Source of the DNA: Diplonema papillatum | Taxonomy: Eukaryota > Euglenozoa > Diplonemea > Diplonemida > Diplonemidae | Assembly: GCA_030068145.1 (NCBI GenBank) | Contig: JAPJBO010001081.1 | Location: 1 to 64,000, forward strand | Reading direction: 5' to 3' | Length of the DNA: 64,000 nt | Part shown: in pieces, positions 1-42,956 of the stretch | How the letters are laid out: each line of letters starts with the position of its first letter | Numbering within the stretch: the stretch's first letter is position 1 | Program-made: the position numbers and the translations under genes | Notes under the pieces: model-generated | The model's database searches: none | What the model saw: only the letters and a program-made list of their open reading frames with translations | Told to the model about the DNA's origin: nothing

Positions 1-2931
1 AATCACCAGAAGTACACCGCACGCAGTTTGGGGAGAGGGCTCCTCGTGGCTCGAGCATCACGGGAAGCACATTCTTTCCATCAACGACAAGAGTACGAAA
101 ACCCAGGTGACAAGAGCTGAGATCTCCGATGCGCTGAACGCCGACCCGAAAGCCCCGGTGGTAACTCTCCGGGTGGCTGTCCGCCTGCGCTGGGTCGAGA
201 AGACGAAACTGCTGGGACTCTGGATCGATCAGGATTTCTCCTTTGTGCCACACGTCCAGAGGGTGGTAGACAATTTCTCACTCAAGTTGAACTTCCTCCG
301 CCACCTCTCGGGGAAGTCCTACGGCTTCAGTACCCGCACGCTGCGCACCCTTTACCTTACGTATGTGCTACCGACGTTCACGTACGCCCTCGGGGTATAC
401 GGCCCCTTCCTTCTAACGTACGACTCGCTTGCGGAACCACAAGTGACGATGCTCGAACGACTTCACCGTCGGGCTCTCATCTGCGTGCTGGGGTGCAGGA
501 AGAACCTCAACGACTTCACTGCCCAGCAAGAAGCCGGGGTACTTCCGATCCGCGCGATCATCCAAGCGCGCATAGCCGCCCTCAGGGAGAGGATGCGACA
601 CCGACCGCAGCTCTGGAACCACGAGCTGGGCCTCAAGACGACGCTCAGCGACGCGTACGATAGCATCGACAACCTATCGGGAACGCACCTATGTGGACGG
701 GAGACCTTTCTCTTCAACCCCTTTGCCCCTTGGCAGCCTTGCCCTGACGTGGTCATAAACGCCTCGCTCCCGGGTAAGCGGGACGCCAGCAAGGCAGAAA
801 AGTTGAGCCGGGTCCTCAGGCAGCTGAGTAAACTGCCACCGGCGGACTGCTGCGTCTGGACTGACGGCTCTGTGGTGAGCAGCGACCCCCCGCCGGCCAC
901 GGTATGCGACCCGTATCGCTCCGAGGACTTGCGGCCGTGGATCAGGCGGTTCGTCGACAGGCCCACCTGGGGTGGTGCAGGCATCTTCTGCGAAATCGGC
1001 CCGACCGTGACATTCGAGGAGGTGGACGACCAACCGCTCGTGGCCCGATGCTTGCAAACCGGCCGGAAGACAATCCAGAAGTCGGTAAAAGCGGGCCGAT
1101 ACGTCTGCAGCTTCCGGACCGAGCAGGTTGCGATCTGTACTTCCCTCCACCTCCTCCAGCAACACCTACCTGCAACCTCTCAACCGCGCCACATCGTCGT
1201 TCTAAGCGACTCTCAGTCGCTCCTCAAAGTCCTCAGTCTGGGGTCGTATAAGCAGAAGGATCCAACCAACATTAGGATCTGGCTGCTGCTATGCGAGCTC
1301 AGAGCGAGGGGGTACGCGATAACGCTGCAATTCGTGTACGCTCACTGTGGGCTCGCGGGCAACGACATGGCGGACTCCTTGGCCAAGGCGGCGGCAGCTG
1401 AGCTCCAAGAATCTACTGCTCGCGCAGCCGCGACACATGCCACACCTCCACCTGCCATTCAAATTAGCGCCGCGGACGTCAAGTATCGACACAAGGCATA
1501 CCTGAACCTAGACAGGGAACGACAGGCCAGGGAAGCCTACTACCGGGCGGATAAGGACGGCAACACGACTCCGTTCGTTAGGCTGGTCAACGGCCGGACG
1601 ATAAAGCGGCGCCGGCACTTGACGCCTCGGGCCGAACGGGAGATTCGCCAGCTGCGCACCGGGCATCACCCACTCATCCGGACGATGTACACCCCGGACA
1701 TGCGCGCGCTCAGCACAGCCGAGCGCGCCCGAACCTTCCGCCCGTGCCCGATCTGCGGGTCGCTCACGACCAGCCCTGTGCTCCACCTGTTCAAGGCGTG
1801 CGCAGACGACGCGACCGCGCCCTTCAGGCTCGCGATGCGCAACCAGGTGGAACACCGCAACAAGGGCGGGTTCCCGAACGCGGCCGACGAACTGTGGTGC
1901 ACCTTGTTCGAGTACCCCGAACTCGCGCTTGCATACCTGCAGCGTGCGGGAGTACTCCCGCACTACACCATCCTCGCATCCTCAGCGTCCGAGCCCGAGC
2001 TCCAGTCGACTCAAAGCGTGCTGGACGCCGCCTCAGACATCTCGTCACAGGCGGAAGACATGTCGGACGAGCAGACAGTTGAATCGCAGCAACCGGAAGG
2101 CGATCTGGTTATGGTGGCCGAAGCGGACGACTGGCGGCTCTAGAAGCTTCTACTCTGGCTGACTTTTACTCCTTTCCCTCCTTCCCAACACCCCTCCCAC
2201 CTCTACCAAGGCCCCGCACAGCCCCGTGATAGAGTCACGGAGTGAGCCGCTTATCGAAGTAACAACCCCACACCGACGGACGAGAACCCGGAACGCCAGA
2301 CCGGTGACCGGCAACCACAAACACAGCCGCCAGCCAGGGCGACAACAGAGAACCGGTTGTTACTTCGAGCTGAAGGAATGCCCACTCCTCACCAAACGAC
2401 TAACAACTGTGTCGGAAACAAGGCCGGGGAGGCTGGTGAGAACCACTGTCACCAAACAACCAAACAGTTTTCTTTTGCCGCGGCGGCACCACGGATTCGT
2501 CACCCGGCCGTACAGGCCCCGATGGGGAGAAGCCGCGCAGGTGCTGGCGGCAACCTAGAAAAGCCCACCCGCAGCGACGCGAACGTAGTGGGAGGAAAGG
2601 CACCCCGAGCAATCGGAAGGAGCCACCCACAATCACCCACAGACACGCAACCACCTACATAAGTACGCCGAAGTTCAAGAACTTGAAGACATGCAATGCT
2701 GGAACCTCCGCTCAACTGAACCTAGTGGGCGCAGGGAAGCCACCGAGCGAAAAACGTACAATCAAGCAATCACTCTTTTCTTTCTGCTTTCACCCAAACC
2801 GGCAAACAAGCGGCCCAGTACAGCCGGCCTAACCTCGAAGCCGGCTCACAGAGCGGCTGTTCTTTACTTAGAATCGCGGTCCGTTGGGCCGGTGGAAAGG
2901 AAGGTGCCTGATGGAAAAAAAAAAAAAAAAA
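1..2931 (+). mobile_element. LINE family 1 copy, cut by the window start
   Basis: This is the 3' part of a non-LTR retrotransposon: the end of ORF2 (2-2143), a 3' UTR (2144-2914) and a 17-nt A tail (2915-2931). The same family recurs on the minus strand at 30973-33444 and 63373-63993, judged by a shared C-terminal CCHC segment and the downstream LW-LF-PE-AL-YLQ pattern. The 3' UTR holds no other gene that I can support. The tail faces the T run of the minus-strand family 2 LINE across a 4-bp spacer. Confidence 0.85.
2..2143 (+). CDS. LINE ORF2, C-terminal part (RT end, RNase H, CCHC)
   Basis: The frame is open from the first codon of the window, so the true start lies outside it; no start codon should be placed at the GTG at 107. 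What remains is the region after the RT palm, an RNase H domain and a CCHC knuckle. RNase H catalytic positions are visible in order: TDGS near 865, TEQVA near 1120, SDSQS near 1206, and HCGLAGNDMAD near 1342. The knuckle CPICG-x8-HLFKAC lies near 1744-1800. The frame closes with TAG. This is the architecture of I/Ingi-like APE LINEs. The polypeptide would reverse-transcribe its own RNA at a nicked target. It aligns by eye with the homologous frames at 30973-33444 and 11917-16386. Confidence 0.85.
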   Translation: MTRSTPHAVWGEGSSWLEHHGKHILSINDKSTKTQVTRAEISDALNADPKAPVVTLRVAVRLRWVEKTKLLGLWIDQDFSFVPHVQRVVDNFSLKLNFLRHLSGKSYGFSTRTLRTLYLTYVLPTFTYALGVYGPFLLTYDSLAEPQVTMLERLHRRALICVLGCRKNLNDFTAQQEAGVLPIRAIIQARIAALRERMRHRPQLWNHELGLKTTLSDAYDSIDNLSGTHLCGRETFLFNPFAPWQPCPDVVINASLPGKRDASKAEKLSRVLRQLSKLPPADCCVWTDGSVVSSDPPPATVCDPYRSEDLRPWIRRFVDRPTWGGAGIFCEIGPTVTFEEVDDQPLVARCLQTGRKTIQKSVKAGRYVCSFRTEQVAICTSLHLLQQHLPATSQPRHIVVLSDSQSLLKVLSLGSYKQKDPTNIRIWLLLCELRARGYAITLQFVYAHCGLAGNDMADSLAKAAAAELQESTARAAATHATPPPAIQISAADVKYRHKAYLNLDRERQAREAYYRADKDGNTTPFVRLVNGRTIKRRRHLTPRAEREIRQLRTGHHPLIRTMYTPDMRALSTAERARTFRPCPICGSLTTSPVLHLFKACADDATAPFRLAMRNQVEHRNKGGFPNAADELWCTLFEYPELALAYLQRAGVLPHYTILASSASEPELQSTQSVLDAASDISSQAEDMSDEQTVESQQPEGDLVMVAEADDWRL

Positions 2932-2945
2932 GCCCTTTTTTTTTT
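2915..2945. repeat. Tail-to-tail A17/T10 junction of two LINEs
   Basis: An A run (2915-2931) ends the plus-strand LINE, followed by gccc and a T run (2936-2945) that is the poly(A) tail of the minus-strand LINE. The same arrangement recurs at 35314-35353, 49295-49326, 61859-61897 and 62265-62296. Confidence 0.9.
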
Positions 2946-3207
2946 GAACTCAGGGACCAGTTTGGAAGCAGAAGCAACGAACGAACGGGGCCTAAGCTAG
3001 AAAACTGGCGGCCAGGGGGGAAACCAATCTACACGATTAAACGGTAAGACCGGAAACTGGCCTGTCGCAGGGCATTTCCTGCATGCTGACAGTTGAAATA
3101 AGGGAGGAAGTGCGGGGTTTAGAGCGTGGGTCTTGGCGTCAAATGAGGAGTTTACATCTATTGGTTGTATTGGTCGTCTACAAGCAGTCTACTCTTCTGT
3201 ACAGCAT

Positions 3208-6200
3208 TTACACTTCAGATTCAAAGTCTCCCGTTTCCTGCAGCATTTGTATGGTTTTTGCGCAGTTTTCCGGTTTAAATAGTTCTGGTAGTCCCAGTTT
3301 CTCGGGAAAGAACATCGAACGGGTAGGTTTTGTTGCTGTACAGTTAATTAGTACGTGTTCTAGTAGGTTTTCTGGCTTTTCCTTGCAGTGCCAGCAGGTA
3401 CTGCCTCGGATATGCCGTTTTCTGTTTTCATTGCTGCACAGGTGTTCTTTGTTCAGGCTCGAATGCCCACATCGTATTTGTAGTAGAAAAGTACGTTGTT
3501 TGAGAGAGAGGTTGCCGGGCAGTTTGGCAGGTAGGCTTTGGTTGGTGGCTCGGTAGTGATGGCCTTGCGGCCTTTTACTGTACCAAGTTCGTCTAACTGA
3601 TTCGATGGTCCGTGCTTTGACTGAGTTGAGGTCTATGGGCACCAATTTGATGTTCCCTGGGTGAGGGGGCTTCTTTTGTACAAATTTAGCAATCTTGTCG
3701 GCGTCTTCGTTGCCTTGTATCCCGCAGTGGGAGGGAACGTGCACGATATGTAATGTTGCGTTTCTAGAGAGCAGGCAGTGCCACCTTTTCCAGATCATTT
3801 CGGACGCTTTGTCGTACTGTCTTTTTAGACCCTTTTCAAGAATCCGTAGTACTGACTGCGAGTCCGAACAGATAGCTATCCTGGGGTGGGTTAGATTTGG
3901 TAGCTGTGCTAGGAAATACGGGAGCAACTCAGTCGCCAGCAGTTGGGCTACCATTTCCGTGCGAAAAACCGAGGCATGTGCACCGCCGCTACATCCTACA
4001 GCAAAAGTTGACCCCGAGAGGCGAAATAGTCGTAACGTGAAACGACCTTTAAGTATTGTTGTGGGGAGTTTGATGGACCTTGTATGGTCGAATCCGGTGA
4101 TATGTATGACACACGCTGAGCCAGTGTGCAAGTCAAGGGGGGCTTTTGAACCATCAGTGTATATCAACAAGTCATACGGGCCATTCCGATGGAGGAATAA
4201 TTCGGTTATCTGTCGGTTGACTAGCGGTGTATTTGATTTTTTAACACCTGGGATGTTGGTTGTAAACTTGGCTAACGGTGCCGCTATTTGTTCAGGGGTG
4301 AGCGGTTCGGTGATGTGACTTTGTCGGGCCACACCGTTGAGGCCTGCTTGTTCCAGCACCAATTGAGCTCTTGCCAGCAATTTTCCTTTGTTCCATTGTT
4401 GCGCGGCGCACTGTCGTTTGGCCAGCGAATCTTTCTGTCGCCTTAAGTTTTCTACCAGGGTAACGCACTTGACGTCAGCAATGAGATTGAACGGAAGGAC
4501 CCGTGTCTCTAGGTGCAGTGCATGGAGAGGGGTGGATTGGGGAAGTCCGGACACGATCCTGAGTGCTCTATTGTGATCAGCCTTGAGCAGGCTCATGTTA
4601 CTATCGCTGATCGAGTGTCCGTAAATCGCCAGGCCATATGTCAGGACGGGGAGGGAATACGTGAGATACAGAGTTCTAAGGATTTCTTGATGATTCATTG
4701 CTAGCCGGGGCTTCAACTCATTTAGAACAGCTAAGCGAGAGTAAAAGCGTTTTCTAATTGTCTGTACATGGGGGTCAAAAGAAAGAGAGTTGTCCATGAT
4801 AACACCGAGGTATCTTGCACTAGTGACGTTGGGAATGCATTTGGACACAACTAATAGAATTCTTTCTTGGGTTCGCATAACCTGTGCAAGGGTATCATAA
4901 TCATGAACCTCGAACCCGTTGCATTCTGTTATCAACAACCCATCCAAGGAGTGAAGTTGTTGGTGCTCGAGTGCTTTTTGTGATAGTTTGAAGGTCAGCG
5001 TTTCTTCGTCAAAGAGGTCTGCCGGGAGGAGACCAATGGCCCGCAAAATTGATTTGTCCAGGGTGGTCAATTTCAGGGTTGACTTCAGGCTAATTGGGAA
5101 GTGTTCGATTGTACTTTCCGACGTGGGCGGCACGTGGATTAATTGAGACTTGGTTGCTGAGAGAGTAAGATCGAACCTGGTGGCCCAGGATTCAATGGTG
5201 TCAGTGACTATCTGGACCATTTCTTTGAGCTGTGCAACATCCTTATGTCTGCAAACGACCGCAAGATCATCAGCAAATAACGCGAAGAACAGCCCTGGAA
5301 ATTTTTCTTCAAGTTCTCTTGCAAGTGACTCTATGTACACCAAAAAAAGTGGCGGGGCAAGTACTGTACCCTGTGGTACCCCTTTGTTTAACTTGAACCG
5401 TTTTCCATGCGTACCGTTGACATTTACAAATGCTTTTCTGCCTCGTAGGAATGCATGGAGCCAGGAATGTAGCTTGCCCTTCACACCCAAGCTGCTCAGC
5501 TTGTCCATGAGTTTTGCTTTGTTGATTGTATCGAAAGCTTTGGTTATGTCAAAGAGAAGGAGCACAGAGTGTTCATTGTTATTGAATGCTTGCTCTAATT
5601 CTAGGTGGACTGCTGCGATTTGCTCCTCGGCTGATCTACCCTTTTGAAAGCCAGCCTGGGAAACATGTAATTTGTCATGCAAGACGTGCCGTAGTCTCAC
5701 GTGAATTACTCGTTCGAAGAGCTTCGCCAGGCAACTGGTTAGGGAGATCGGCCTATATGAGTCAATATCCTCCGGGGGCTTTCCTGGTTTATTCAACATC
5801 ATCATTTGGGCCAGTTTCCAGTCTCGTGGAACCACGGCCTTACACCATGACATGTTGAACAAGCGCAGTAATGTTTCTTTGGCTTCAAGACCCAGGTTCA
5901 ACAGCATTAGGTTGTTGACGCCATCAGGTCCGCTACTTGTCGTTGGTTTCAGGTCTGCGAGGCCCCATTCTAGCTCCGACATTGTGAGTGGGGTATCCTG
6001 CGTTGTTGTGTGACAAGCTCTGTCATAACTCGGCAGTTCTTCCCCTTCACTGACGTTCGCTAGGTATTGCCCCATTAAGTCAGCCTTCTTCCTGTCATCA
6101 AAGACAGTCTCTCCTTGTACGATAAGTGGCGGAATCACACAGTCAGGCCTCACCTCCGAGCTCACCTGTATCGCTTTATAGGCCTGTCTGATGGTGGAGA

Positions 6201-7452
6201 TCCGAGAGAGTCGCGAGGTATTCGATGCCAGTGTTTTGGTTTTTTCTTCAGCGATCAGTCCATTAATTCTACTTTGGGTTGCTTGAAGAGAGTTCTCATG
6301 GTCATTACACGAAATTCCAACTACTTTGTTGCGAATAATCTCAGCACGTAGCAAGTCTCTTTCTTGCATAGCCTCCTTGACTGCCTCAGTAAACCAGGTA
6401 TTACCCCGTCTTTTACCACAACGTGGCACGCACTTATCTCTCGTCGAGATCAATGACTTCGTAAACCGTTTCGCCAGCGTTGTAGTGTCATTTATTGATT
6501 TGAGGCGCCGCTGCTGACAGTCAACATCCGCCATGTACTGTCCCCAGTCGGCTTTGCCCCAGGCAAAGTCATTCACGTGTTTAGGTTCATTTGGAAACAA
6601 ACAAGGAAGAGATACAAGCATTGGAAGATGATCTGAGCCACCGGACCGCTTCAGTACCCTCCAGTTGGCTGACTCCCACTCGATAGGTGCAAGAAAAATG
6701 TCGGGTGACGTATTTGATTGTGGTCGCGTAGAGATTGAGGGATCGTTCAAGACGGCCAACTCAGATTGAAGTATCCATTCAAACAGAATTGGTGCAAGTC
6801 GATTACTAGGATGGTTGGTGGTAGCCCTGTTTTCCCACAAGGGATGATGGAGGTTCACATCGCCCCCAATGATGGCTGAGGAGGAAGGCAATAGAGTCGG
6901 ATCAAAGTAGTCAATACGCTCCTCTCCCGGGTTGGACCGTACTATGGGTGGTTTGTACAAGTTGACAACCCTGAGAGACGAGCCATCAGGTAAGAATACT
7001 TCCACATCCAATCTTTCTGTTGGGTCATTTACATTTGCCAGCTGAAAATCATGTTTTCTCTCAAATTTTATATTATCACGGACGAGCGTGAGTAACCCAC
7101 CTGCTACCGTCGGTTTTGCAGTTCCGTTTCTCCTGATTGTCCGGTCACGGCGTTCAACCTTGAAACCTGGAACGATTACGACCTCTTCGGGTGGTATCAA
7201 CACTTCCTGCAGCAGGAGGATGTCCAGATTGTACCGTTGGATGAGTTCGAGAACAAACTCTTTCCTCACCCTCCAGCTGTGACAATTAAAACAGAGGACT
7301 CGAAGCCAGCTGTTTTCTACCGTTTTTGGACCCGGGTTTGGGTGTATGTCTCCACACCGTGCTAAAGGAACACCGTGTGAGGATGCGTGTTTTTTGCGGT
7401 GTGCAGTCCGGCAGGAAGGAAGAGAAGCGTTGGCTAGCGTTGATGTGATGAC
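3208..7452 (-). CDS. LINE family 2 ORF2: 2A, AP endonuclease, RT, RNase H, CCHC
   Basis: A 1,414-codon frame runs from the ORF1 stop to a TAA. In order: a basic linker, the 2A-like motif CGDIHPNPGP (7356-7327), then APE endonuclease with FNCHSW (about residue 56), LLLQEV, GGDVNLHHPLW and SGGSDHLPM. RT follows with AGFQKGRSAEEQ, LFDITKAFDTI, GVPQGTVLAPPLF and FADD (about residue 724). RNase H has YTDGS (about residue 1100), FRTEMVAQ, CSDSQS and HCGIQGNEDAD. A C-terminal CWHC-HVLINC knuckle ends the protein. The first in-frame AUG lies after the endonuclease, so the start must be by UGA readthrough, reinitiation or a non-AUG codon. I favour readthrough because ORF1 is in the same frame. Confidence 0.9.
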   Translation of the reverse strand, partial: VITSTLANASLPSCRTAHRKKHASSHGVPLARCGDIHPNPGPKTVENSWLRVLCFNCHSWRVRKEFVLELIQRYNLDILLLQEVLIPPEEVVIVPGFKVERRDRTIRRNGTAKPTVAGGLLTLVRDNIKFERKHDFQLANVNDPTERLDVEVFLPDGSSLRVVNLYKPPIVRSNPGEERIDYFDPTLLPSSSAIIGGDVNLHHPLWENRATTNHPSNRLAPILFEWILQSELAVLNDPSISTRPQSNTSPDIFLAPIEWESANWRVLKRSGGSDHLPMLVSLPCLFPNEPKHVNDFAWGKADWGQYMADVDCQQRRLKSINDTTTLAKRFTKSLISTRDKCVPRCGKRRGNTWFTEAVKEAMQERDLLRAEIIRNKVVGISCNDHENSLQATQSRINGLIAEEKTKTLASNTSRLSRISTIRQAYKAIQVSSEVRPDCVIPPLIVQGETVFDDRKKADLMGQYLANVSEGEELPSYDRACHTTTQDTPLTMSELEWGLADLKPTTSSGPDGVNNLMLLNLGLEAKETLLRLFNMSWCKAVVPRDWKLAQMMMLNKPGKPPEDIDSYRPISLTSCLAKLFERVIHVRLRHVLHDKLHVSQAGFQKGRSAEEQIAAVHLELEQAFNNNEHSVLLLFDITKAFDTINKAKLMDKLSSLGVKGKLHSWLHAFLRGRKAFVNVNGTHGKRFKLNKGVPQGTVLAPPLFLVYIESLARELEEKFPGLFFALFADDLAVVCRHKDVAQLKEMVQIVTDTIESWATRFDLTLSATKSQLIHVPPTSESTIEHFPISLKSTLKLTTLDKSILRAIGLLPADLFDEETLTFKLSQKALEHQQLHSLDGLLITECNGFEVHDYDTLAQVMRTQERILLVVSKCIPNVTSARYLGVIMDNSLSFDPHVQTIRKRFYSRLAVLNELKPRLAMNHQEILRTLYLTYSLPVLTYGLAIYGHSISDSNMSLLKADHNRALRIVSGLPQSTPLHALHLETRVLPFNLIADVKCVTLVENLRRQKDSLAKRQCAAQQWNKGKLLARAQLVLEQAGLNGVARQSHITEPLTPEQIAAPLAKFTTNIPGVKKSNTPLVNRQITELFLHRNGPYDLLIYTDGSKAPLDLHTGSACVIHITGFDHTRSIKLPTTILKGRFTLRLFRLSGSTFAVGCSGGAHASVFRTEMVAQLLATELLPYFLAQLPNLTHPRIAICSDSQSVLRILEKGLKRQYDKASEMIWKRWHCLLSRNATLHIVHVPSHCGIQGNEDADKIAKFVQKKPPHPGNIKLVPIDLNSVKARTIESVRRTWYSKRPQGHHYRATNQSLPAKLPGNLSLKQRTFLLQIRCGHSSLNKEHLCSNENRKRHIRGSTCWHCKEKPENLLEHVLINCTATKPTRSMFFPEKLGLPELFKPENCAKTIQMLQETGDFESEV
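7327..7356 (-). other. 2A-like ribosome-skipping motif in LINE ORF2
   Basis: The codons read CGDIHPNPGP, matching the 2A core D-(V/I)-x-x-N-P-G-P; His replaces the usual Glu. It lies 32 codons after the ORF1 stop and 14 codons before the conserved endonuclease Asn. Skipping between G and P would release the endonuclease-RT protein from anything translated ahead of it. The family rule is established for APE LINEs and picornaviruses; activity of this copy is inferred. Confidence 0.75.
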
Positions 7453-7455
7453 TCA
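7453..7455 (-). promoter_or_regulatory. In-frame UGA between ORF1 and ORF2 (possible readthrough site)
   Basis: The ORF1 stop reads AAG CAU UGA GUC on the minus strand. The next 61 codons up to the GTG at 7269 are open in the same frame and run into ORF2. UGA-G is not the strongest leaky context, so efficiency is uncertain. Confidence 0.55.
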
Positions 7456-8721
7456 ATGCTTGCTACCTCCTTTCTTGCCGGCCTTAGCCACTGGTCTGAC
7501 TTTTTCTCCTTCTGGGGGGGTTGCCTCCCTCTTGCGGCGGGAAGGTGGTGGCTCCTCTGTGGAGTCTTCATCAGTGCTGTCATCCGCAACTTGTGACTTT
7601 TTTTTCGAAGGACAACCTTTTCCTTTTTTCTTTTGATCTTCCTCCCTCCAAGATTGGAGCATTTCTCGAGTGTCATCCTGCTGCTGCCGCAGCATAACGC
7701 CGAACGTCGATGCCAGCTCAGCCGTCGTCCTCGACATCGCCTTCTCAATCTGTTGATTGAGGTCGCTGCGCAGCGTCTTGGTCGCGTCGTCGATCTTGCA
7801 CGACTGCGTCTTCGCCGATTCCTCCAAGGAGTTTGCGAGCTCCTTTCTCAAGGAGTCGTTTTGGGCGTTGATTGATTGTTTGAGCTTTTCGAGCTCAGTC
7901 TGCGTTACGAACTTGTTGTTCGTCAGAATTGTCGGACCGGTGGGTTTGGCGGTGGGGGTGTTGCTTGTTCTATCATTGGCGACTGGGGGTTGGTTGCGGG
8001 GTCTGTCGGTGCGTTCAACAGTGAGTTGGGCGCCATCGACGTAGACTTCGGCGTTGGGGGGGTCGTCAACACTCTTGACTACCCAGTGGCGTCCTTCATC
8101 GGCTTCCACGGGTCTAGCAACTAAGGCAGACCAGCCCATCTTCTCCAAGGCTCGGGCGATCTGCTCTTTTCGGGCGGTGGCCGGAACCCCCTTCACCAAG
8201 AAGAAGCGACCCTTGTCCGTCTGACCGCCAACAAGAGCCACCACTGCTTCCAAGTGCGCTGCCCCTTCTTCCACACGTATCCCAAAACCTCTCCTGGAGA
8301 CCACCAGTCCCCAGTGCTGTGTCACGTCCACGCGGCCCATCCTTCTGACAGCTTCATCAGCTTCACCCACGTCCAGTCCACTCATCCACACCACGTCGAA
8401 CTTCTTCCGGGCCTCGAATGTCTCCTTAGAGACTAGACTTTTCACGAACAGCTTCTCGCGGCCGGACCCCCGTAGCAGCTTCTCAGCGAGACCTGCCCCC
8501 GAAAAGCAGAGCATCGAAAACACTTCCCCCGAGCCGACGTTCCGGATTTCTGGTCTTGCAAGCCTGAACTGGGCCGTTGTACCAAACAATTTCACCAGTC
8601 GCAGCTTGACTTCCTTGATCAAGTCGTCTTGATCTCCGAAAAGCACCGTTTCTACCGCCCGGTGGATCTCAACCACCACTCCTGTCGACGCTTCCCAGAC
8701 ACCCGTTGTGGTTCTTGCCAT
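7453..8721 (-). CDS. LINE family 2 ORF1 protein
   Basis: A 422-residue frame with an ATG start that is the first AUG of the element. Residues about 130-245 form an RRM-like region (GRFFLVKGVP, KMGWSALVARP, GRHWVVKSVDD) that is shared in pattern with ORF1 of family B at 16388-19762 (YFLVSGVP, SLGWTAQP, GRHIEWAVKS). Residues about 270-370 look like a coiled coil rich in Glu, Lys, Gln and Leu. The tail is Lys-rich. No zinc knuckle is present. The likely role is binding and chaperoning the element RNA in a ribonucleoprotein particle, as known for LINE ORF1 proteins. It ends in UGA in frame with ORF2. Confidence 0.8.
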   Translation of the reverse strand: MARTTTGVWEASTGVVVEIHRAVETVLFGDQDDLIKEVKLRLVKLFGTTAQFRLARPEIRNVGSGEVFSMLCFSGAGLAEKLLRGSGREKLFVKSLVSKETFEARKKFDVVWMSGLDVGEADEAVRRMGRVDVTQHWGLVVSRRGFGIRVEEGAAHLEAVVALVGGQTDKGRFFLVKGVPATARKEQIARALEKMGWSALVARPVEADEGRHWVVKSVDDPPNAEVYVDGAQLTVERTDRPRNQPPVANDRTSNTPTAKPTGPTILTNNKFVTQTELEKLKQSINAQNDSLRKELANSLEESAKTQSCKIDDATKTLRSDLNQQIEKAMSRTTAELASTFGVMLRQQQDDTREMLQSWREEDQKKKGKGCPSKKKSQVADDSTDEDSTEEPPPSRRKREATPPEGEKVRPVAKAGKKGGSKH

Positions 8722-8804
8722 TTTCCCGTTAAATTCAATTTTGTAGGGGGTGTGTTATTCGAGACTGGAGGTCCAATAAAGTACAGAAACTGTAGCTTTT
8801 AAAT

Positions 8805-9294
8805 CGTTGGTAGCCCGAGGTTTGGCAACATGGCCTAACGGTTACCGCACCCTCCTGGGCCCCTGTAGGCCATGGTTCGATTCCCCCGGTCCGATTTTTT
8901 TTTTTGCGATTTTTCGGTGTGAAAAGCAGCCGTCTGGAAATTATTTACGAGGTCTTTTTGGGAAATCTTTTGGTTTTCGAGTAGTTCTGGGATGCGCGAT
9001 TATGGGCAAGCTGCCAGCTAGCCCAGCGATCAAAATCTGACCCCCTCCTGGATGCAGAGAGAAAAAAAACCGATCTCCAGGACCCCATTTTTTCGGGTGC
9101 CGACCTCCATTTCCGGGGGGGGGGTCGGTCAAAATTTTTATCCGACCAAATATTCGGAAAGCCCTGTCCTCAACGGATTCAAACGTGTCCTCAAAATCTC
9201 GAAACCGACCATTTTCGGACCTGCAGATGGAATTTTTCGGCAGAAATCCGAAAAAAGCCGAAATCTGTGACACTTTTTCGTGGAATGGGTGATA
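8805..9294 (+). mobile_element. Repeat X: putative tRNA-headed SINE
   Basis: The 5' part (about 8818-8893) carries a pol III-like A box (tggcctaacggtta) and B box (ggttcgattcc) followed by a T run, so it looks like a degraded tRNA. The acceptor stem does not pair, so I do not call a tRNA gene. The body (9052-9294) is repeated inverted at 35741-36024, where the tRNA head is shortened and 8872-9060 is missing. Confidence 0.5.
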
Positions 9295-10058: not shown

Positions 10059-11916
10059 AAAAATTTGGAAACCGCACCCGGGTTAGGCTTGGGGATACGG
10101 TGCTAAGGTTCCTTGTGCCTTCTCTTCATCCTTGGGGCGTTTGTTTGTTTTCTGTTTCCTTTCGTTCGTTCTTGGTATGGTTGTGGGGGGGTTCAGTGGG
10201 TTTGTTTCTTGCCCGCCCTCCCCTTGTTTCTTGCCGCTGTTTTGGTAATGATGTCCTGGCGTGCCAGGCTTTACCAGTCGCGGTCGGTGTGTTTCCGGCG
10301 ATTGTCGCGCTGTCAGTTGCCTGTGATAGTAATTTGTCAAGGGTTTGCTTTGGTTCGCTGCTGATATGCTGCTTGGCTCTGCGTGTTGTGTGCAGTGATG
10401 GTTGTTTTTCCTTGGTTTTGTTGTGGCTTCGTCCTTCGCTCGCCCTCCCTTTCCGGTGCGGTGTTCTGACGTCTTTTGGTAACCCTGGCGTGCCAGGTTT
10501 GCCTGTTGAGTCGGTCTTCCGTGTCGGTCGGGGGGGGTTTGCTTTCGCTTCGGGACTTTCCTGTTGTTGTCGGGCGCGTGGCGCTGTTTCGCTGCCGCTG
10601 CCCGTCCTGCTGCCTTCGCTCTTGTGGGTTGTTGTTGAGCGTGGTGCGTGTAGCACTGAAACGGGGGGTTAATACGTTGTCTGTTGTTTTGGCAGGACTC
10701 GGCTTCTCTTGCGTGCTTGGGGGGGGGGCGTTGTTATTGGTTCTGGTTTTGTGGGACAAGGTAAGGGAAAGGTATTTCTTTTTCGGCAGTTGGTGGGGGG
10801 TATTTTTTGGACTTGTTGTGCGGCTCTCCCTTCCGGGCGGTGTTCTGACTTCTGTTGGTAAACCCTGGCGTGCCAGGGTTTGCCTGTTGAGTCGGTCCTC
10901 CGCTTCGGTCGGGGGGGGCTGGTTTGGTTGCTGCTTGTCTCTGTTTCGCTTTGCGGCGCTGTTGCGTGGTGCGGTCCGTTGGGCGCTTCGCCTGCCTCTA
11001 CTTTGTTCTTCCTTCCGGGGCCTTTGAGCTTGCTGCTTGTCTCTGTTTCGCTTTGCGGCGCTGTTGCGTGGTGCGGTCCGTTGGCCTGGTCGCTTCCGGC
11101 AGCGTCAGAAACACTGGGCTGGTGTTTCCGACGCTGTTCTATCCCGTGCTCATTGTCCGCTCTCGGCCCGGAGGGTTGTCTTTTTTTTGTTTTGGTTGCT
11201 AATGCACTGTTCTTGTGTTGCAGCTACCTGTCTGCCTCAGTGACCGCTCCAGTGCTCACTCTGCGTGGTGCGGTCCGTTGGCCAGGTCGTCTCCGGCAGT
11301 CGGAAACACCGGGCTGGTGTTTCTGACGCTGTTCTATCCCGTGCTCATTGTCCGCTCTCGGCCCGGAGGGTTGTCTTTTTTTGTTTTGGTTGCTAATGCA
11401 CTGTTCTTGTGTTGCAGCTACCTATCTGCCTCAGTGACCGCTCCAGTGCTCACTCCACCCTTTTGGACCTTCCTATGGTCAGGTGGGTGTGCTGTCGGTG
11501 CACCGAGTCTACCCTTCGTTGGTAGTCGTGTTCGGTCGCGGCGCTGTTGCGCTGCTGCGGTGGTACTTTTGTTTGCCTTCTTTTTTTCCCCTCTCTTTTC
11601 TTATTGTTCTCAGGTGCTGTTCGGTCCGGTGACCGGCTGCGTCCGTGTCGGCGTGCGGGCTTCGGCTGTTCGTCGGCGCCTGCGTCTCCGTTGTCGTGCT
11701 GCCGGTTTACTGCTGCCGCCTTGCGGCGGTTGGTCGGTGGCCGTGGGGACTGTGTAGTGCCGGGTGTGTGCGTCTGGTGTTGGACTGCGCCGTCAGCGTA
11801 CTGATTCGCGCTTCGCACTCAGCAGCCCTGTTGCGCCTGCACCGGCGGTCGGGTGAGGTTGCTTTGCACGGATGTGCCGGGTGTGTTGCCGCCTCAGTCT
11901 TCCGACCCGGCCCGAA
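10059..11916 (-). other. 3' UTR of LINE family B
   Basis: No gene is supported here. The plus strand is G/T-rich. It contains internal duplications: a block around 10925-10975 repeats at 11035-11085, and a roughly 170-bp block around 11110-11265 repeats at 11300-11455. Open frames in this stretch follow composition and are identical in the truncated copy at 27253-29098. Confidence 0.75.
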
Positions 11917-14900
11917 CTATGCCCATCCTTCGGCATCCTCGGAGCTTGATCCCTCGAGGTCGAAGGTGTTGTCGACGCCATTGGTTGCTGCTGCCGCCAT
12001 GTTGCCGTCGAGTTCCGGTGTGCCGGGCTCAGGTGGGTCTTCGTAGACCTCGTACTTCGGCACAAGCCCCACGGCCTGAAGGTACGCGAGGGCTGCTTCA
12101 GGGAGCTCGAAGAGCAGCGGCCAAAGCAGCTTGTGCCTTTCCCTGGGTGTCGGCTTTTCCCTTGGTGTGTCCGGGATGGCCTTGTGGACCCGTCTCCACA
12201 TGGTCGCTCTCTCGTCGCCCCCGATTCTGCATTCCAGGAAAAGGTGTGTTAGGGGGCAGATCGGCGTGGCGTCGCAAAGCTGGCATGGGCGGGTTGCTTG
12301 CCTCTCTTCTGCTGCGAGATCCATCCAGTCGTCCCGGTAGCAGTTCCTGAGGAGTTGGTGGTGTCCCGTGCGAAGCTGGCGGATCTCGCGCTCGGCTCGC
12401 CTCGTCAGGTGTGCCGTTTTTGGGACCTTCCGTCCTCGGACCAACTGCGTGTACGGCAGCGGCCCGCCCGGTTGGTACGGGGATTCCCGCATTGAAGCCG
12501 CGTGTAGTGCCTCCCAGGCGTGCTCGCGGTACCGGGCCTTCGCGGTTCCTACCGTCATCGGCGGCTGCGTTTCTTCTCCGGTCTGCGAGACGCCCTGCTT
12601 CGCTAGCCCGTCCGCCTCTTCGTTCCCTGCTAGTCCGCAGTGGCCGTAGACGAACTGGAGTACTGGTGTATACCCCTTCGCAACCAGTTTCTCGAGCGCC
12701 TGCCAGATTCGGACGTTGTCCCGTTCTTGCTGTTTGTGCGGACCTTGGGACAGCACGTTCAGAAGGGAGCTGGAGTCGCTGAGCACCCAGATGTGTCTGC
12801 TGGTAGGCTCTCCTTCGAGTACCTCCCTCTTTCCCAGTTTCAGCTCCAGCGATTCCAGCGCAATTTTCATCGCCACTTGCTCCGCGCGGTAGCTGGTTGC
12901 CCACTTACCGGCCTGACGGCTTAGGCGGGTCCCTTTCATCGGCGTCGCGTCTCTCCAGCTTTCTTCTCGGCGGTAGTACACCACGAGACCTGCGCCACCC
13001 CACCTCGTGACCTCGTCGGTTGTTACGGTTGTACCGTGGAGCAGCTGGTACTGTGCGTGTCTTCTCTTCAGCGCCGCAACCGATCCGTCCGTCCAGACGA
13101 TGTATGTCGGGGATGGCAATCCGTCGAGGACTGCCTCTGCCTTTCTCCGGTTTTCCTCGGCGCTTTTCGACTTCTTTGGAAGTGAAGCGCAGATGTGGAG
13201 CTCTGGTGGCGGCTTCCAAGGTGGGAAGGGATTTGGTGCGTGCTTCTCCCGCCGTGGCTTCGATGTTCGCGCCGTCTTCTTGAGGATGAGGAAGGACTGC
13301 GGGAGGGTGTCGTTGGTTCGTCGCGGATGCAGCACGTCCTTCCACATGGTCTTCGTGGCCATCTTTTCCGCCAGCGCGCCTGTCCTGAGGTCGGTTATCG
13401 ACCTGATTGGCAGCATTCGTGCCTCGGTGAGGACAGCTTCCGTCAACGTCGTCTTCTTGCAGCCAACCACGGCGCAGAGTGCGGTTCGATGCAGGCACTC
13501 TATCCTGTCCACGTCCTTCTTCGATGCATAACGGATGTAGACTGCCATGCCGTAGGTTAAGACCGGCAGGGCGTATGCCATGTAGAGGGCTCTGAGCACT
13601 TCGGTCTTGTGGCCCCACTTCGTCCCGGATACCAGCTGTACCAGATTTACCCTCCGCCCAGCGCTCTGCAGTATGCGATCTATGTGAGCTGTGAAGTTCA
13701 GTCTGTCGTCGATCGTCAGCCCCAGGAGTGTTACCTTGTCCTTCCACTGAAGGTCTGACACCACCGTGAACTCTATGGGGTTTTGGGCCGTCTCCCCGAT
13801 TCGATGGATATTTCGTCTCCATTGCGGTTGCGTTGTCGTTGGCACTCCGCCGATTGACACTATCCTCTTCTTGTTGTGTGGGCTGGATGGATCGATGTAG
13901 CGGAGCGCCCCATCTTGCTCGTGTGCCTTCCTGCCGAATTCGGTTGGTGCCTCAGTGACTTTTTGGTGCGAGTTCGGGAAGGTGATCAGAGGTGGGTGGA
14001 CCCTCCTTCGCATGTTCGCGGGTCGGTTGCCAGACTTGTCGATCGGGCGGAATTGAACAGCCTCCGTCTTCTTGTACGCCAGGTCCATCTTCGCCTCGGA
14101 GGCCCAGGTTGAGAGTGCGTTTACCACTCGTTGGACTGTTTCTTTGAACCCTGCCGCCGAGCGACCAGCCACTACTACCCCCACGTCGTCGGCGAATAGA
14201 GATGGGGTCACGTTATTTGGATTGGTGCGTGTTGGTTTCGGCATCGTGGACAGCTTTTCGCCGAGGTCGTCGATGTACAAGAGGAATAACACTGGTCCGA
14301 GCACAGTTCCCTGGGGGACTCCACTTTCGAGTGTCACCTCTTCGCCGTATTTTCCCTCTACCCGGAACTTTGCCTTCCTGTCCTGCAAGAAGGCCTCGAC
14401 CCACCTCACTATCTTCGGCGGAATGCCGCGACGCTTCATGATCGCGATGAGTCTGTCGTGATCTACCGTGTCGAATGCCTTTGCGAGGTCGAACACGAGT
14501 AGGCAAGTGTGGCATTCGTCCCGGAGGCTGCGGTCAACGGTCGTCACGGTCTTGAACAGCTGTTCTTCTGTCCCCCTTCCTTTCCGGAAGCCACCTTGGC
14601 ACTCCGTGAATGGTCGGACGTGAGGGTAGCTGTCTCCTTCGATGATGAAATCGAGCCTTTCCCTGATCACCGTTTCCATGATCTTTGCCGCGACGCTCGT
14701 CAGCGAGATTGGGCGGTATCCTGCTGGTTCGGACTTGTCTTTTCCCGGCTTCGGAAGGGGTATGGCATGAGCCTCTTTCCACGGCTTTGGGATCGTCGCG
14801 TTGTCCCACGACGCGTTGATTACCTTCAGTAGTGCCTGGAGGGTGCCCTTCTCCATCGCTTTGTAAACTTGGGGGCAGAGGCCTTCCGGGTCGGTTGATG

Positions 14901-16386
14901 CCTTCGCTTTGAGCTTCTCGACTGCTCTCTCTATTTCGGCTAGAGTGATCGGGCCTTCGGCTTCGTTGTTCGCGGTTTCCTGGCGTTTTCCGGATGGTGT
15001 CGCAGGCTCCGTCGTCGGTGTTGAACCCGTCTTCTTCTTGCAGACTTCGGTGTTATGCTGGGTTTTATTTGTGGTTTCCTGGCGTTCATCGGACGGTGTC
15101 GCCGGCTTTGTTGTCGGTGTTGGTTCCGTCTTCTTCTTGCAGACGTTGGCGTAATATTTGGCGAGGAGGGTTGCCTTCTCGGCCGGGTCGGTGGTGGTCC
15201 GCTCTCCTGACCGGAGGGGAGGGAGTGTGCTACTCGTCTTCTTCCCGTCGATTTCGCGGACCGTCCGGAACAGTAGCCCTAGGTCTGTTCCGCGGTTCAC
15301 TTTGTCGACGATTCCGCCCCAGTAGATCGTCTTGGCGTGTAGCGCCGCTTCCGCGAATCTCGCCCTCGCTTCTTCGTACGCGGTCTTTGCGTGCTCCGTT
15401 TTCTGCTGCTGGAACGACCGGAATGCGGCGTCTTTGCTCCGAGACAGAGGTGTCAATGTCTTGTCCCACCACGGCCTCGGGGGCAGCTTCCCAGTTGACT
15501 TGGGGATGTGCTCGCGGATCGCGTCTCGGATGTGGCCTGTTAACGTGGCCGCTAGCTCGTGGGGGTCGGTTGTTTCGTCCTCCGGGGATGCGGCACACGT
15601 GTTTTCGAGATGTTCTGTGAACTTCTTCCAGTCTGCTCGACCCCAGGCGATTCCGGCTCTTGGTGTTTCCTTTCTGTGCCTGTATCCGCGTGGGATGTCG
15701 AACATGAGAGTTCGATGGTCAGCGCCCCATGCTTCCTCCGTTCTCCAGTTCAGGATGGTGTGTGGGAGGCCAGCTGCGATCGTTACGTCGGGGGAGGTGT
15801 TTGATGCGTCCCGCGTCGGCGTCGTCGGTTCGTTCCACACGGTTGCCGCGTTGCTGGAGAGCCATGCGTGGAGCTTCGTGCCTGCTTGGTTTGCGACCCT
15901 GCTGGGGCACCATGATGGGTGGCGTGTGTTGAGGTCCCCGCATATGATGGTTCTCTCATTCATGGCTAGCGGATCCATCTTCAGGTCTTTCCCGTCTTCC
16001 GGCGGGCGGTACACGTTGTAGATGCGGACGCTTGGGAGGCCTACGCGGTCTATTTCGATACCTAAGCACTCCATGAGTGTGTCTTCGCCAAAGTCCAGTT
16101 CCGGAAGTATTCGGCTGATCAACGAGCTCCGTACCAGGATGACGAGTCCTCCACCCCTCTTCCCCGAATTTTTCCTGTCGCGCCGGTAGGCGACGTATCC
16201 GGCGACGTTCGGTGTGGGCTTCGTGCTCGTCAGCCATGTTTCCTGTAGGAGTACTATGTCGGGTGCGTGGGCTCGAATGCCTCTCGTCACTTCTTCGATT
16301 GAATACGGCCCTTGCTTCGCCCACCACGACCTGATGTTGCTCGACGCGATTTTGATCAGTGCGTCGAAGATGGCCGGCGGTCTAGG
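11917..16386 (-). CDS. LINE family B ORF2: AP endonuclease, RT, RNase H, CCHC
   Basis: About 1,489 codons, ending in TAG. The endonuclease Asn (ASSNIRSWW) is at 16338-16336, followed by LLQETW, GDLNTRHPSW and GADHRTLMF. RT motifs are GGFRKGRGTEEQ, VFDLAKAFDTV, GVPQGTVLGPVLF and FADD near 14190. RNase H shows WTDGS near 13095, RAEQVA, LSDSSS and HCGLAGNEEAD. A CQLCD-HLFLEC knuckle lies near 12230-12275. A 33-residue unit beginning VCKKKT is tandemly duplicated between endonuclease and RT. No AUG precedes the endonuclease motifs, and the frame is open into ORF1 in the +1 register, so frameshifting or stop-restart is likely. Confidence 0.9.
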   Translation of the reverse strand, partial: PRPPAIFDALIKIASSNIRSWWAKQGPYSIEEVTRGIRAHAPDIVLLQETWLTSTKPTPNVAGYVAYRRDRKNSGKRGGGLVILVRSSLISRILPELDFGEDTLMECLGIEIDRVGLPSVRIYNVYRPPEDGKDLKMDPLAMNERTIICGDLNTRHPSWCPSRVANQAGTKLHAWLSSNAATVWNEPTTPTRDASNTSPDVTIAAGLPHTILNWRTEEAWGADHRTLMFDIPRGYRHRKETPRAGIAWGRADWKKFTEHLENTCAASPEDETTDPHELAATLTGHIRDAIREHIPKSTGKLPPRPWWDKTLTPLSRSKDAAFRSFQQQKTEHAKTAYEEARARFAEAALHAKTIYWGGIVDKVNRGTDLGLLFRTVREIDGKKTSSTLPPLRSGERTTTDPAEKATLLAKYYANVCKKKTEPTPTTKPATPSDERQETTNKTQHNTEVCKKKTGSTPTTEPATPSGKRQETANNEAEGPITLAEIERAVEKLKAKASTDPEGLCPQVYKAMEKGTLQALLKVINASWDNATIPKPWKEAHAIPLPKPGKDKSEPAGYRPISLTSVAAKIMETVIRERLDFIIEGDSYPHVRPFTECQGGFRKGRGTEEQLFKTVTTVDRSLRDECHTCLLVFDLAKAFDTVDHDRLIAIMKRRGIPPKIVRWVEAFLQDRKAKFRVEGKYGEEVTLESGVPQGTVLGPVLFLLYIDDLGEKLSTMPKPTRTNPNNVTPSLFADDVGVVVAGRSAAGFKETVQRVVNALSTWASEAKMDLAYKKTEAVQFRPIDKSGNRPANMRRRVHPPLITFPNSHQKVTEAPTEFGRKAHEQDGALRYIDPSSPHNKKRIVSIGGVPTTTQPQWRRNIHRIGETAQNPIEFTVVSDLQWKDKVTLLGLTIDDRLNFTAHIDRILQSAGRRVNLVQLVSGTKWGHKTEVLRALYMAYALPVLTYGMAVYIRYASKKDVDRIECLHRTALCAVVGCKKTTLTEAVLTEARMLPIRSITDLRTGALAEKMATKTMWKDVLHPRRTNDTLPQSFLILKKTARTSKPRREKHAPNPFPPWKPPPELHICASLPKKSKSAEENRRKAEAVLDGLPSPTYIVWTDGSVAALKRRHAQYQLLHGTTVTTDEVTRWGGAGLVVYYRREESWRDATPMKGTRLSRQAGKWATSYRAEQVAMKIALESLELKLGKREVLEGEPTSRHIWVLSDSSSLLNVLSQGPHKQQERDNVRIWQALEKLVAKGYTPVLQFVYGHCGLAGNEEADGLAKQGVSQTGEETQPPMTVGTAKARYREHAWEALHAASMRESPYQPGGPLPYTQLVRGRKVPKTAHLTRRAEREIRQLRTGHHQLLRNCYRDDWMDLAAEERQATRPCQLCDATPICPLTHLFLECRIGGDERATMWRRVHKAIPDTPREKPTPRERHKLLWPLLFELPEAALAYLQAVGLVPKYEVYEDPPEPGTPELDGNMAAAATNGVDNTFDLEGSSSEDAEGWA
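15031..15145 (-). repeat. In-frame 99-bp duplication inside ORF2
   Basis: The string cttcttcttgcagac occurs at 15031 and again 99 bp later at 15130, and the intervening 33 codons are repeated with a few changes. The unit codes a Thr/Pro/Lys-rich linker between endonuclease and RT. Confidence 0.75.
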
Positions 16387-16387
16387 C

Positions 16388-19300: not shown

Positions 19301-19762
19301 TTGCTTCGTTCGCTGTCGGGCGAGCCTGCGGTCGTAGTCTCGGTGGAGACGGCGCTGCTTTCGAGTGAGGGAGCGGAGTAGGATGTACCGGGGAGGCAGG
19401 AGTACCGGTGTGGCTGCGGCGTGGCGTGAGAGGCTGCTAGGTCGTCGCGGGTTGGTGTTTTGTGTTCCGGCCGAGGTGACGGTTGAGGGGCGGATTGGCG
19501 GTGACCAATTGTAGACTTCCCTGGTGCTGTGAGGCGTGTCACGTTGGTGTCCTGCCTTTGTCGTGGGTTGGACCGGGGGTCTCGGCTGGTGCGTCGTGTT
19601 GCCTTGCGTCAGCCCGCCTCCCGGTTCCTGCACGTGCCCCAAGGGCTCGTCGAGCGTCTTCGTTGCGCCGCCGCCGTTGCTGTTTGGCGGCGGCGTTGCC
19701 AGTGCGGCGGCTAGTGCGACCAGGAGCATCACGCCGGGCGGGGTGTCGCCGTGTGCCTTCAT
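16388..19762 (-). CDS. LINE family B ORF1 protein
   Basis: The frame has 1,124 codons from the ATG at 19762 and is open further upstream to a GTG at 19873. It is very long for a LINE ORF1. The N-terminal third is Thr/Pro/Arg-rich. A Gly-rich stretch with seven consecutive glycines lies about residue 380. The central part carries the RRM-like pattern YFLVSGVP, SLGWTAQPLF, GRHIEWAVKS (about residues 620-690) shared with family 2 ORF1. The C-terminal third is low-complexity and Pro-rich. The role is presumably RNA binding in the element RNP. The stop TGA overlaps the ORF2 frame, which reads across it in another register. No zinc knuckle or 2A motif was seen. Confidence 0.75.
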   Translation of the reverse strand: MKAHGDTPPGVMLLVALAAALATPPPNSNGGGATKTLDEPLGHVQEPGGGLTQGNTTHQPRPPVQPTTKAGHQRDTPHSTREVYNWSPPIRPSTVTSAGTQNTNPRRPSSLSRHAAATPVLLPPRYILLRSLTRKQRRLHRDYDRRLARQRTKQEEDNRKREHRAQSREMLIFAQETTPGATTQHSAQPAGPLYLSLDYYIGETTADEKEARSTAPAGDPDLPGLPPTNRRKDRSNDAPTSQLHRIAPEIAHPTATASQPGSEQAAPSTAPPGTEAHIATTHTAADEQHPEGTKGPSAQTTARTNFFVQGLDGKRHLVAAHLDERLGDVLERHMPANLEAYVIRGSGAPLPLDQPLESIGFESGMSPGVAVCARMHGGGGGGRGKVHVRVVRPGAAHATHSAAGAGGRGGRGHAGGGDPRAGHHANTSGRGSTNVDDKRTTQRPTPERNQQPEANNRDEQGGHKLYGGWEWPETRFRYVLPWTETSGSWEEVTRQPYSWAQSCLHRTVNRNIINSCWNDSAETSFTKGELHRELRMEFSTPQANEEEVLRCSGHGGFIERTEHDDDTPSPYVNIMLNEGTALHEAHEIASRISDWQLGLTYCRGTLGIRVRREQAKQLRAQLPEAPPEVGYFLVSGVPCGTNAHHLRAKLDSLGWTAQPLFKTAKNGRHIEWAVKSEVLPGKYNHTTHDGIRLTIRRTKRLPLEPTGPNRCPRLSNELRSAETHRRHDPSRPKDNDRLSFQQFQARHGNKAATVWEIAGALDADRPEIDEFDEGAPFAGGELVGAADDDEAGREGGSPQVPENEGTTPPRPPPTSASHTSPATSQPLSAQTLQEALVNALPALLDVLARANQEPKPPTTHNAKAEPTPRTNSTALRASTTTIISPASRDTPTCTNDAAPQLTTRRASWHQDTDAPGTAGHSLAHPHQPPLLPTRTVGFPFEPPSESTTQAEPAQTNPPSINNDGGNSPPNNGQLVVCTDSIFRRPISKEAERAMFCIAMRDRERRREDKVLEGVPRKALPTTTRVDERAKAHSTQAILQKRESAEKRTRRRNSLPAPASPPTPLPIIRDPATPTHVPIISQESTDLMAGDEPQGTEAQPGDGRNSPSRRPEGPKASQPPRPQTN

Positions 19763-20285
19763 GACCGTATTGTTCACACCCCTCCGCCGGGTGTGGGCCT
19801 TCACGCGCGCCGGAACGAAGGCGCTAGCCGCTGTCAGGTGGCTCTTCCCCGGCTCAGGGGTAGTCGGTGTCACGTTGCGCGGTCGGGCGCGGCTTCCGAT
19901 CTGTCTCTCTCTGTGGCGGTCAGAGGAAACTCGTGCACTCGTCTTCGTTCGTGTTGTTGTTGTGTTGTTTCTTTTTGTCGGGGACTTCTTTCACCGGGGA
20001 GACCGGTACCGCTTTCCTCACAAACCCGAGGGAGGTTTATGGGTGACCACGGTAAGCCACCAATAAAGTTTTTTTTTTTTTGGAGCGCGGGACACTGTAC
20101 TCGACATGTTGGTACAGCGGGGCTGCCGGTATCCGGTTGCTTCCGGAGCGGTAGTCCAAAGAAATGCTTCTTCAGCACACTGTGAACGCCTGTCTCACAG
20201 CGACACGGGACTGGCCTGCGCTGACTGCAACAGGTCCGACCCGGTAAAAAAACCCGCGATGCAGTGACTCTACCCCCTGCATCAG

Positions 20286-42941: not shown

Positions 42942-42956
42942 GTAATCGTTGAGAAT

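Follow-up and report, generated by a model that had tools for sequence, protein, structure and literature searches.

Layout of the element

The window analysed here is a 64,000-nt stretch of the genome of the marine diplonemid flagellate Diplonema papillatum (assembly GCA_030068145.1, contig JAPJBO010001081.1, positions 1 to 64,000). On its minus strand lies a long interspersed nuclear element (LINE) of roughly 5.8 kb, described here as young, in which two open reading frames (ORFs) of the same register are separated by a single UGA and a 2A/StopGo-like motif follows in the second frame. The host genome, of about 280 Mb, has a 39-bp spliced leader (SL) exon and 110 SL RNA gene copies, adds the leader to essentially all messenger RNAs (mRNAs) and contains cis-introns; its transposable elements are described as not yet curated (PMC10161547). 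The element contains the following features, all on the minus strand.

8774..8811, minus strand: copy of the spliced leader, forming the 5′ end of the element; the ORF1 AUG comes after a further 52 nt
8721-7456 (7456..8721), minus strand: ORF1, 422 codons, with a basic C terminus conserved up to the stop
7455-7453, minus strand: UGA separating ORF1 from ORF2, the proposed readthrough site (TGA in 45/45 copies read)
7354..7452, minus strand: in-frame spacer of 33 codons without AUG (reading frame and copy comparison)
7327-7353, minus strand: GDIHPNPGP, a 2A/StopGo-like motif whose last proline would begin the ORF2 protein (motif, PMC12846837)
7452-3208, minus strand: ORF2 frame, 1414 codons, same register as ORF1, endonuclease-reverse transcriptase (RT)-RNase H
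6628..7290, minus strand: APE-type endonuclease domain (Pfam PF03372, 1.2e-10, residues 55-275; PF14529, 2.1e-12)
6621-6619, minus strand: first in-frame AUG of ORF2, codon 278, past the endonuclease (frame reading)
5119..5784, minus strand: RT domain (Pfam PF00078, 1.1e-37)
3685..3903, minus strand: RNase H domain (Pfam PF00075, 8.5e-07)
3210-3208, minus strand: ORF2 stop, UAA (frame reading)
2936..3207, minus strand: 3′ untranslated region with an A-run at its end (sequence and copy comparison)

The domain order of ORF2 fits an APE-type LINE with RNase H, and its RT gave 14 PDB hits, LINE-1 ORF2p and R2 chains among them. From host lineage and domain order the element probably has an Ingi affinity, within the I/Ingi-like group. 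ORF1 gave no Pfam match above cut-off, and no further in-frame UGA occurs within ORF1 or ORF2 of the window element. An initial annotation of this DNA had described a UGA between two frames of one register, a 2A motif just ahead of the endonuclease and the lack of an in-frame AUG until past that domain. All three descriptions hold at the coordinates above; the open stretch after the UGA, given there as 61 codons, in fact runs for 1414.

One stop codon across copies and families

The initial annotation proposed that stop readthrough couples ORF2 to ORF1, and named the comparison of genomic copies as a way of checking this. The 187-bp junction stretch recurs exactly at six places in the genome, the window among them, and in part at three more. 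The window copy and four others (L009, L010, L011 and L013), roughly 99.9% identical over 5.2 to 5.8 kb, form the window family (F1) together with a sixth copy, L012 (C209), which diverges from the rest by about 4%; the junction is identical letter for letter in all six. At a DNA difference of about 25%, L016 (C1488) retains the UGA, the frame and the motif, with an AUG two codons before the Gly-Asp (GD) that opens the motif.

A genome search with the ORF2 N terminus returned 136 places, most of them judged from open-frame length alone, and none with at least 48% identity has an open frame longer than 1489 codons, a length that would be exceeded if ORF1 were intact and a sense codon took the place of the UGA. 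Junctions were read at 45 distinct places in 14 families (F1–F13 and F19), some of which may be two haplotypes of one place. Duplicates had been removed before counting (L001–L008, L017 and L019–L023, the same places as other loci), and the count excludes L049 (its stop is preceded by sequence other than ORF1), L063 (stop-less), L064 and L065 (without the 2A-like motif) and the motif-less fragments L014 and L015, both of which read KH-TGA. Going upstream from GD[IV]HP[NH]PGP, the first stop met in frame is TGA in 45/45 copies, at a distance of 17 to 338 codons. The arrangement expected of programmed stop-codon readthrough, a conserved stop followed by a conserved in-frame ORF, was found in every one of these copies and in all 14 families, with the UGA in the ORF1 register throughout. 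Spacer length varies widely, the number of codons to GD being 33 in F1 and F2, 25 in F3, 17 in F4, 99 in F5, 163 in F6, 98 in F7, 61 in F8, F9 and F12, 31 in F10 and F11, 60 in F13 and 338 in F19. By homology, the TGA closes ORF1 in 12 families (11 representatives and F2). The window LINE belongs to a large diplonemid group of LINEs that have two ORFs, an APE-type endonuclease and an RNase H.

Stop identity and coding constraint downstream of the stop

By its design the search returns only junctions in which frame 0 is open between stop and motif; the comparison is informative because the stop is the end of ORF1 and is always TGA, and because stops close frame +1 in all but 3/11 representatives and frame +2 in all but 1/11. 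When spacers were shuffled, the probability of such openness was an unremarkable 0.25 for F1, 0.0054 for F6 and 0 of 5000 for F19. The stops of ORF2 are mixed: among 11 families, TAA occurs in 4, TAG in 5 and TGA in 2. TGA at the ORF1 end (11/11 families) versus the ORF2 end (2/11) gives a Fisher p of 2.2e-4, and after merging of close families the difference persists (8/8 versus 2/8, p=0.007).

Selection on the spacer was assessed in nine non-independent pairs of families by comparing synonymous (pS) and nonsynonymous (pN) differences in each frame. The best of the nine, F8-F12, has pS 0.38 and pN 0.10 in frame 0 (p=3.8e-5), with p>0.8 in the other frames, and remains significant without the 2A-proximal part (p=0.0014). 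Over the full spacer, coding constraint in frame 0 reaches p<0.05 in 6/9 pairs (F1-F2 0.03, F2-F3 0.0066, F8-F13 0.0044, F9-F12 0.0028 and F12-F13 0.01, besides F8-F12), the others being F8-F9 (0.068), F9-F13 (0.16) and F10-F11 (0.094). The 2A-distal part alone is significant in 3/9, namely F8-F12, F8-F13 (0.032) and F9-F12 (0.04). Coding constraint in the distal spacer is seen in the F8–F13 group only. Over the spacer as a whole, frame-0 purifying selection is evident in this best-sampled group and weak in the window family. The conserved UGA and register, the mixed ORF2 stops and the frame-0 selection in one group favour the proposed coupling of ORF2 to ORF1, and comparison supports readthrough of the UGA itself well.

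The 2A-like motif

The motifs were compared with the 2A/StopGo core D[VI]ExNPGP and its active variants. The motif of the window family, DIHPNPGP, has His at p14 only; that of F8–F13, DIHPHPGP, has His at both p14 and p16. Assays in reticulocyte lysate found activity above 95% for rare StopGo variants that bear His at p14 or at p16 in their natural contexts; N16A abolished F2A activity, and N16H placed in foreign contexts had shown no more than modest activity (PMC12846837). On the motif and these published assays, 2A-mediated release of the ORF2 enzyme is plausible in the window family.

The window carries further motifs of this kind. At 42825-49181 on the plus strand lies a different retroelement, a single long ORF with Cys-rich fingers and, by eye, an RT-like stretch, which contains two tandem 2A-like motifs, DGDVQRHPGP and VDGDIHPNPGP, at 45552-45578 and 45666-45692. 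A second copy of this tandem pair lies in a 338-codon frame at 23855-24013 on the minus strand, and L098, by eye a relative of the plus-strand retroelement, begins with a spliced leader.

Sequence context of the stop

The base after the UGA is G in F1–F3, A in F4–F6, F10, F11 and F19, and C in F7–F9, F12 and F13, so that no stop context is common to the families. Folding was assessed in 14 representatives as single-sequence folds against shuffles. In the 90 nt downstream of the UGA, z ranges from -1.43 (F19) to +1.78 and is positive in 12/14; in the 140 nt downstream (12 representatives), the window family reaches -1.90 (5 of 100 shuffles) and the rest lie between -0.58 and +1.67. A separate fold of the window junction gave z -1.35. 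No consistent downstream folding signal was seen across the representatives. The 100 nt upstream have negative z in 7/14, with F7 at -3.75 (0 of 100), F2 at -2.24 (1 of 100) and F4 at -1.73 (6 of 100). With neither a shared stop context nor a shared folding signal in view, a cause acting in trans is suspected rather than proven.

Readthrough weighed against reinitiation

Several observations weigh against an account based on readthrough and 2A. The copies are not independent, given the shared ancestry of the families and the possible presence of both haplotypes in the assembly. The stretch before the UGA was identified as ORF1 by eye in F6, and F19 lay outside the homology comparison. One distant family, L063 (C66:21900-23100), carries GDVHPNPGP behind 384 codons that, as far as read, are all open, and possibly represents one fused ORF. 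The distal spacer shows no significant constraint in F1-F2 (0.57), F2-F3 (0.23), F8-F9 (0.31), F9-F13 (0.42), F12-F13 (0.11) or F10-F11 (1). The HPHPGP of F8–F13 is a double departure from the core, and we saw no published test of such a double variant. Some upstream 100-nt stretches (F7 and F2) fold better than shuffles, making a cis element conceivable. Termination at UGA does occur, in one histone-like gene and at the two ORF2 ends of F4 and F19, so that any leakiness must be partial. Finally, in-frame AUGs lie upstream of the motif in F2, F5, F7 and F19, and right before the endonuclease in F4 and F6. The AUGs and the stop-less L063 tell against a simple reading of the coupling proposed in the initial annotation, which is supported in part.

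These AUGs bring in the strongest rival, termination followed by reinitiation, in which some ribosomes would rescan after the UGA and begin again further downstream, at an AUG or a near-cognate codon, in the manner of SART1 or LINE-1. It gains from their placement, directly before the motif (F2), directly before the endonuclease (F4 and F6) or within the spacer (F5, F7 and F19), and from the 90 nt after the stop, which fold no better than the shuffle mean in 12/14 representatives. However, among 11 representatives no AUG overlaps the ORF1 stop and none begins less than 8 nt after it, so the stop-start arrangement of SART1 was not found. No in-frame AUG precedes the motif in F1, F3, F4, F6 or F8–F13 (in F8–F13 the scan covers the first 41 to 82 ORF2 codons); in F1 the first 277 codons lack one, and in F3 none occurs ahead of codon 64, which lies within the endonuclease. 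Moreover, the ORF1 register is kept over very different spacer lengths and the stop is always UGA, neither of which reinitiation would need. We consider reinitiation unlikely as the general explanation; for F2, F4–F7 and F19, where AUGs are at hand, it is possible.

The meaning of UGA in the host

A different rival holds that UGA is a selenocysteine codon or a standing sense codon in this host. A tRNA-Sec is present (2 matches above cut-off) and, as described below, the host eRF1 is divergent. Set against this, no selenocysteine insertion sequence (SECIS) family matched in window positions 2500-9000 at E up to 10, the three Rfam matches there all falling below cut-offs, and the ORFs of the window element hold no other in-frame UGA. 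Stops occur inside 1/133 of the host kinase matches listed, which argues that UGA is not a sense codon in the host, and UGA ends the F4 and F19 ORF2 and the histone-like gene. Of eight histone loci read, 1/8 ends in TGA and 7/8 in TAG, six of the latter on one contig. A search for a short-stem tRNA-Trp with one sequence pattern gave no match. Taken on this evidence, decoding of the UGA as selenocysteine or as a standing sense codon is very unlikely.

The host release factor is itself unusual. There are two eRF1_1 matches in the genome, one of which reads like pelota; the sole eRF1 found is L068 (C455), with a GGQ exon some 450 bases downstream. Aligned to solved eRF1s, it replaces TASNIKS by TATSIKS and Ser70 by Ala, and its GTS loop reads GVASAGL, with one residue inserted, where others have GNGTSM; it keeps Glu55 and YxCxxxF. 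The GTS, TASNIKS and Ser70 motifs are named for stop recognition, and in Blastocrithidia an eRF1 Ser70Gly change accompanies UGA readthrough (PMC12153298). The divergent eRF1 probably permits the LINE readthrough in trans, although this is the least certain step of the proposal.

Spliced leaders at LINE 5′ ends

A pattern for the 3′ part of the leader occurs exactly at 624 places in the genome, and its reversed control at 0. Eight copies have a leader upstream of the ORF1 AUG, at a distance of 40 to 116 nt: the window copy (52), L009, L012, L024, L030, L031, L035 and L090, the leader being incomplete or changed in L031 and L035 and represented by its 3′ part only in L090. In L091–L095 it joins the same untranslated sequence, the AUG lying beyond the piece read. 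Within F1, the leader is present in 3/6 copies (window, L009 and L012) and absent in L011 and L013, and L010 is truncated. Extra leader remnants begin right after an internal ACAG, one in L009, one in L030 and two in L024. These remnants at LINE 5′ ends indicate that trans-spliced LINE RNA has been copied back repeatedly. Target-site duplications were found in neither of the two copies in which they were checkable.

The 13 leader-bearing copies bear directly on the fate of the UGA in RNA. The junction was read in 12 of them (all but L095) and TGA is present in 12/12; such copies derive from processed RNA yet keep the UGA and the spacer, which argues against the UGA being spliced or edited away. 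This retention is the strongest argument for recoding at translation.

Trans-splicing itself suggests another source of ORF2 protein, a separate mRNA whose leader is joined inside ORF1 or the spacer. Trans-splicing takes in essentially every mRNA of the host (PMC10161547), but in F1 such an SL-ORF2 mRNA would have no AUG before the end of the endonuclease, and no leader was found joined inside the element in the loci scanned, many of which stop short of the 5′ end; we give this reading little credence. Least credible of all is removal or change of the UGA in RNA, by a cis-intron over the stop or by editing, to yield a minority mRNA with one fused ORF: cis-introns exist in D. papillatum (PMC10161547), but TGA and spacer are retained in all 12 leader-bearing copies with a read junction and in 45/45 overall.

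Comparison of L090 with L092–L095, and of L035 with L091, shows the leader joined at two places in the untranslated region, as if there were two trans-splice acceptors. In L016, a leader lies 2.1 kb before ORF1 with other coding sequence between, and this copy was excluded from the leader-bearing count. This stretch of about 2 kb, behind a leader with LINE-like untranslated sequence, resembles a piggyBac-type transposase by eye and may be a later insertion. A search for SL RNA genes (SL followed by GTATG) gave two places, one in C1898 and one, L096, which on reading is not an SL RNA gene; L089 and L097–L100 have no GT after the leader.

Proposed mechanism and relation to known systems

For the window family, UGA readthrough combined with a 2A-like motif is the best explanation of the sequence, and we judge it rather likely to be right. 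The element RNA would receive a spliced leader, and ORF1 would be translated by ordinary scanning. Most ribosomes would terminate at the UGA and release the ORF1 protein, and a minority, as the comparison of copies suggests, would insert an amino acid there and carry on into the spacer without leaving the frame. At GDIHPNPGP, to judge from the motif and published assays, the last Gly-Pro bond would be skipped, releasing an endonuclease-RT-RNase H that starts at proline and needs no AUG. The outcome would be a high ratio of ORF1 to ORF2 protein, the leak probably being permitted in trans by the divergent host eRF1.

L1Tc of Trypanosoma cruzi is a euglenozoan element. Along with sea urchin and other elements, it belongs to the APE-type non-LTR retrotransposons that bear 2A sequences (PMC4981915, PMC12846837). 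In contrast to the L1Tc type, the window LINE has a separate upstream ORF1 that ends in UGA in the same frame, so that readthrough is needed to reach the 2A, and its motif has His at p14 (in F8–F13 also at p16). As in the Gag-UAG-Pol of Moloney murine leukemia virus (PMC5009743), an in-frame stop stands between an abundant structural protein and a polymerase; in the LINE, however, the stop is UGA, no stimulatory structure was recognised, and separation of the products would fall to a 2A-like motif instead of a protease. SART1, with its UAAUG stop-start (PMC5972666), likewise couples translation of a LINE ORF2 to ORF1 termination, whereas here no AUG overlaps or adjoins the UGA and ORF2 is in the ORF1 frame. 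Blastocrithidia, which combines eRF1 Ser70Gly with a short-stem tRNA-Trp (PMC12153298), is also euglenozoan and also changed at eRF1 position 70, but in D. papillatum UGA is not reassigned, and Ala at 70 is accompanied by altered GTS and TASNIKS motifs. The leader remnants recall dinoflagellate mRNA recycling, in which repeated trans-splicing and reverse transcription have left their trace as a full leader trailed by leader remnants that were cut at an internal AG (PMC6050394, PMC3229502); unlike in dinoflagellates, the relict leaders here sit on LINEs themselves, in a diplonemid, making this a second lineage with genomic relict spliced leaders.

Readthrough and 2A are each known separately. 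The open literature searched contained no report of UGA readthrough with 2A in a LINE, of such an arrangement in many families or of the divergent eRF1, though that search did not cover Odon 2013, Luke 2014 and Rao 2025, so that a prior mention is possible. By what means LINEs obtain small amounts of ORF2 protein from a bicistronic RNA has long been an open question, and the 14 families, which share a stop codon and a separating motif but differ in spacer length, form a natural series in which it becomes directly testable. The system may also tie retroelement recoding to a divergent host release factor. More tentatively, and we are doubtful of it in this full form, drift of the sole release factor in diplonemids may have made UGA a standing, host-wide leaky stop that a whole LINE radiation taps through its ORF1 terminator, 2A restoring a free enzyme. 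If true, UGA would be a codon of two meanings without reassignment, possibly a half-way state to the code changes of Blastocrithidia.

A different coupling occurs in the same host and window. Another LINE lies at 11917-19873 on the minus strand, with a probable ORF1 at 16388-19873 and an ORF2 frame at 11917-16503 (stop to stop); its ORFs overlap by at most 116 bases in different registers, and it is without a 2A-like motif. Tandem units of about 197 bp occupy window positions 11065-11455 and also adjoin the L013 copy.
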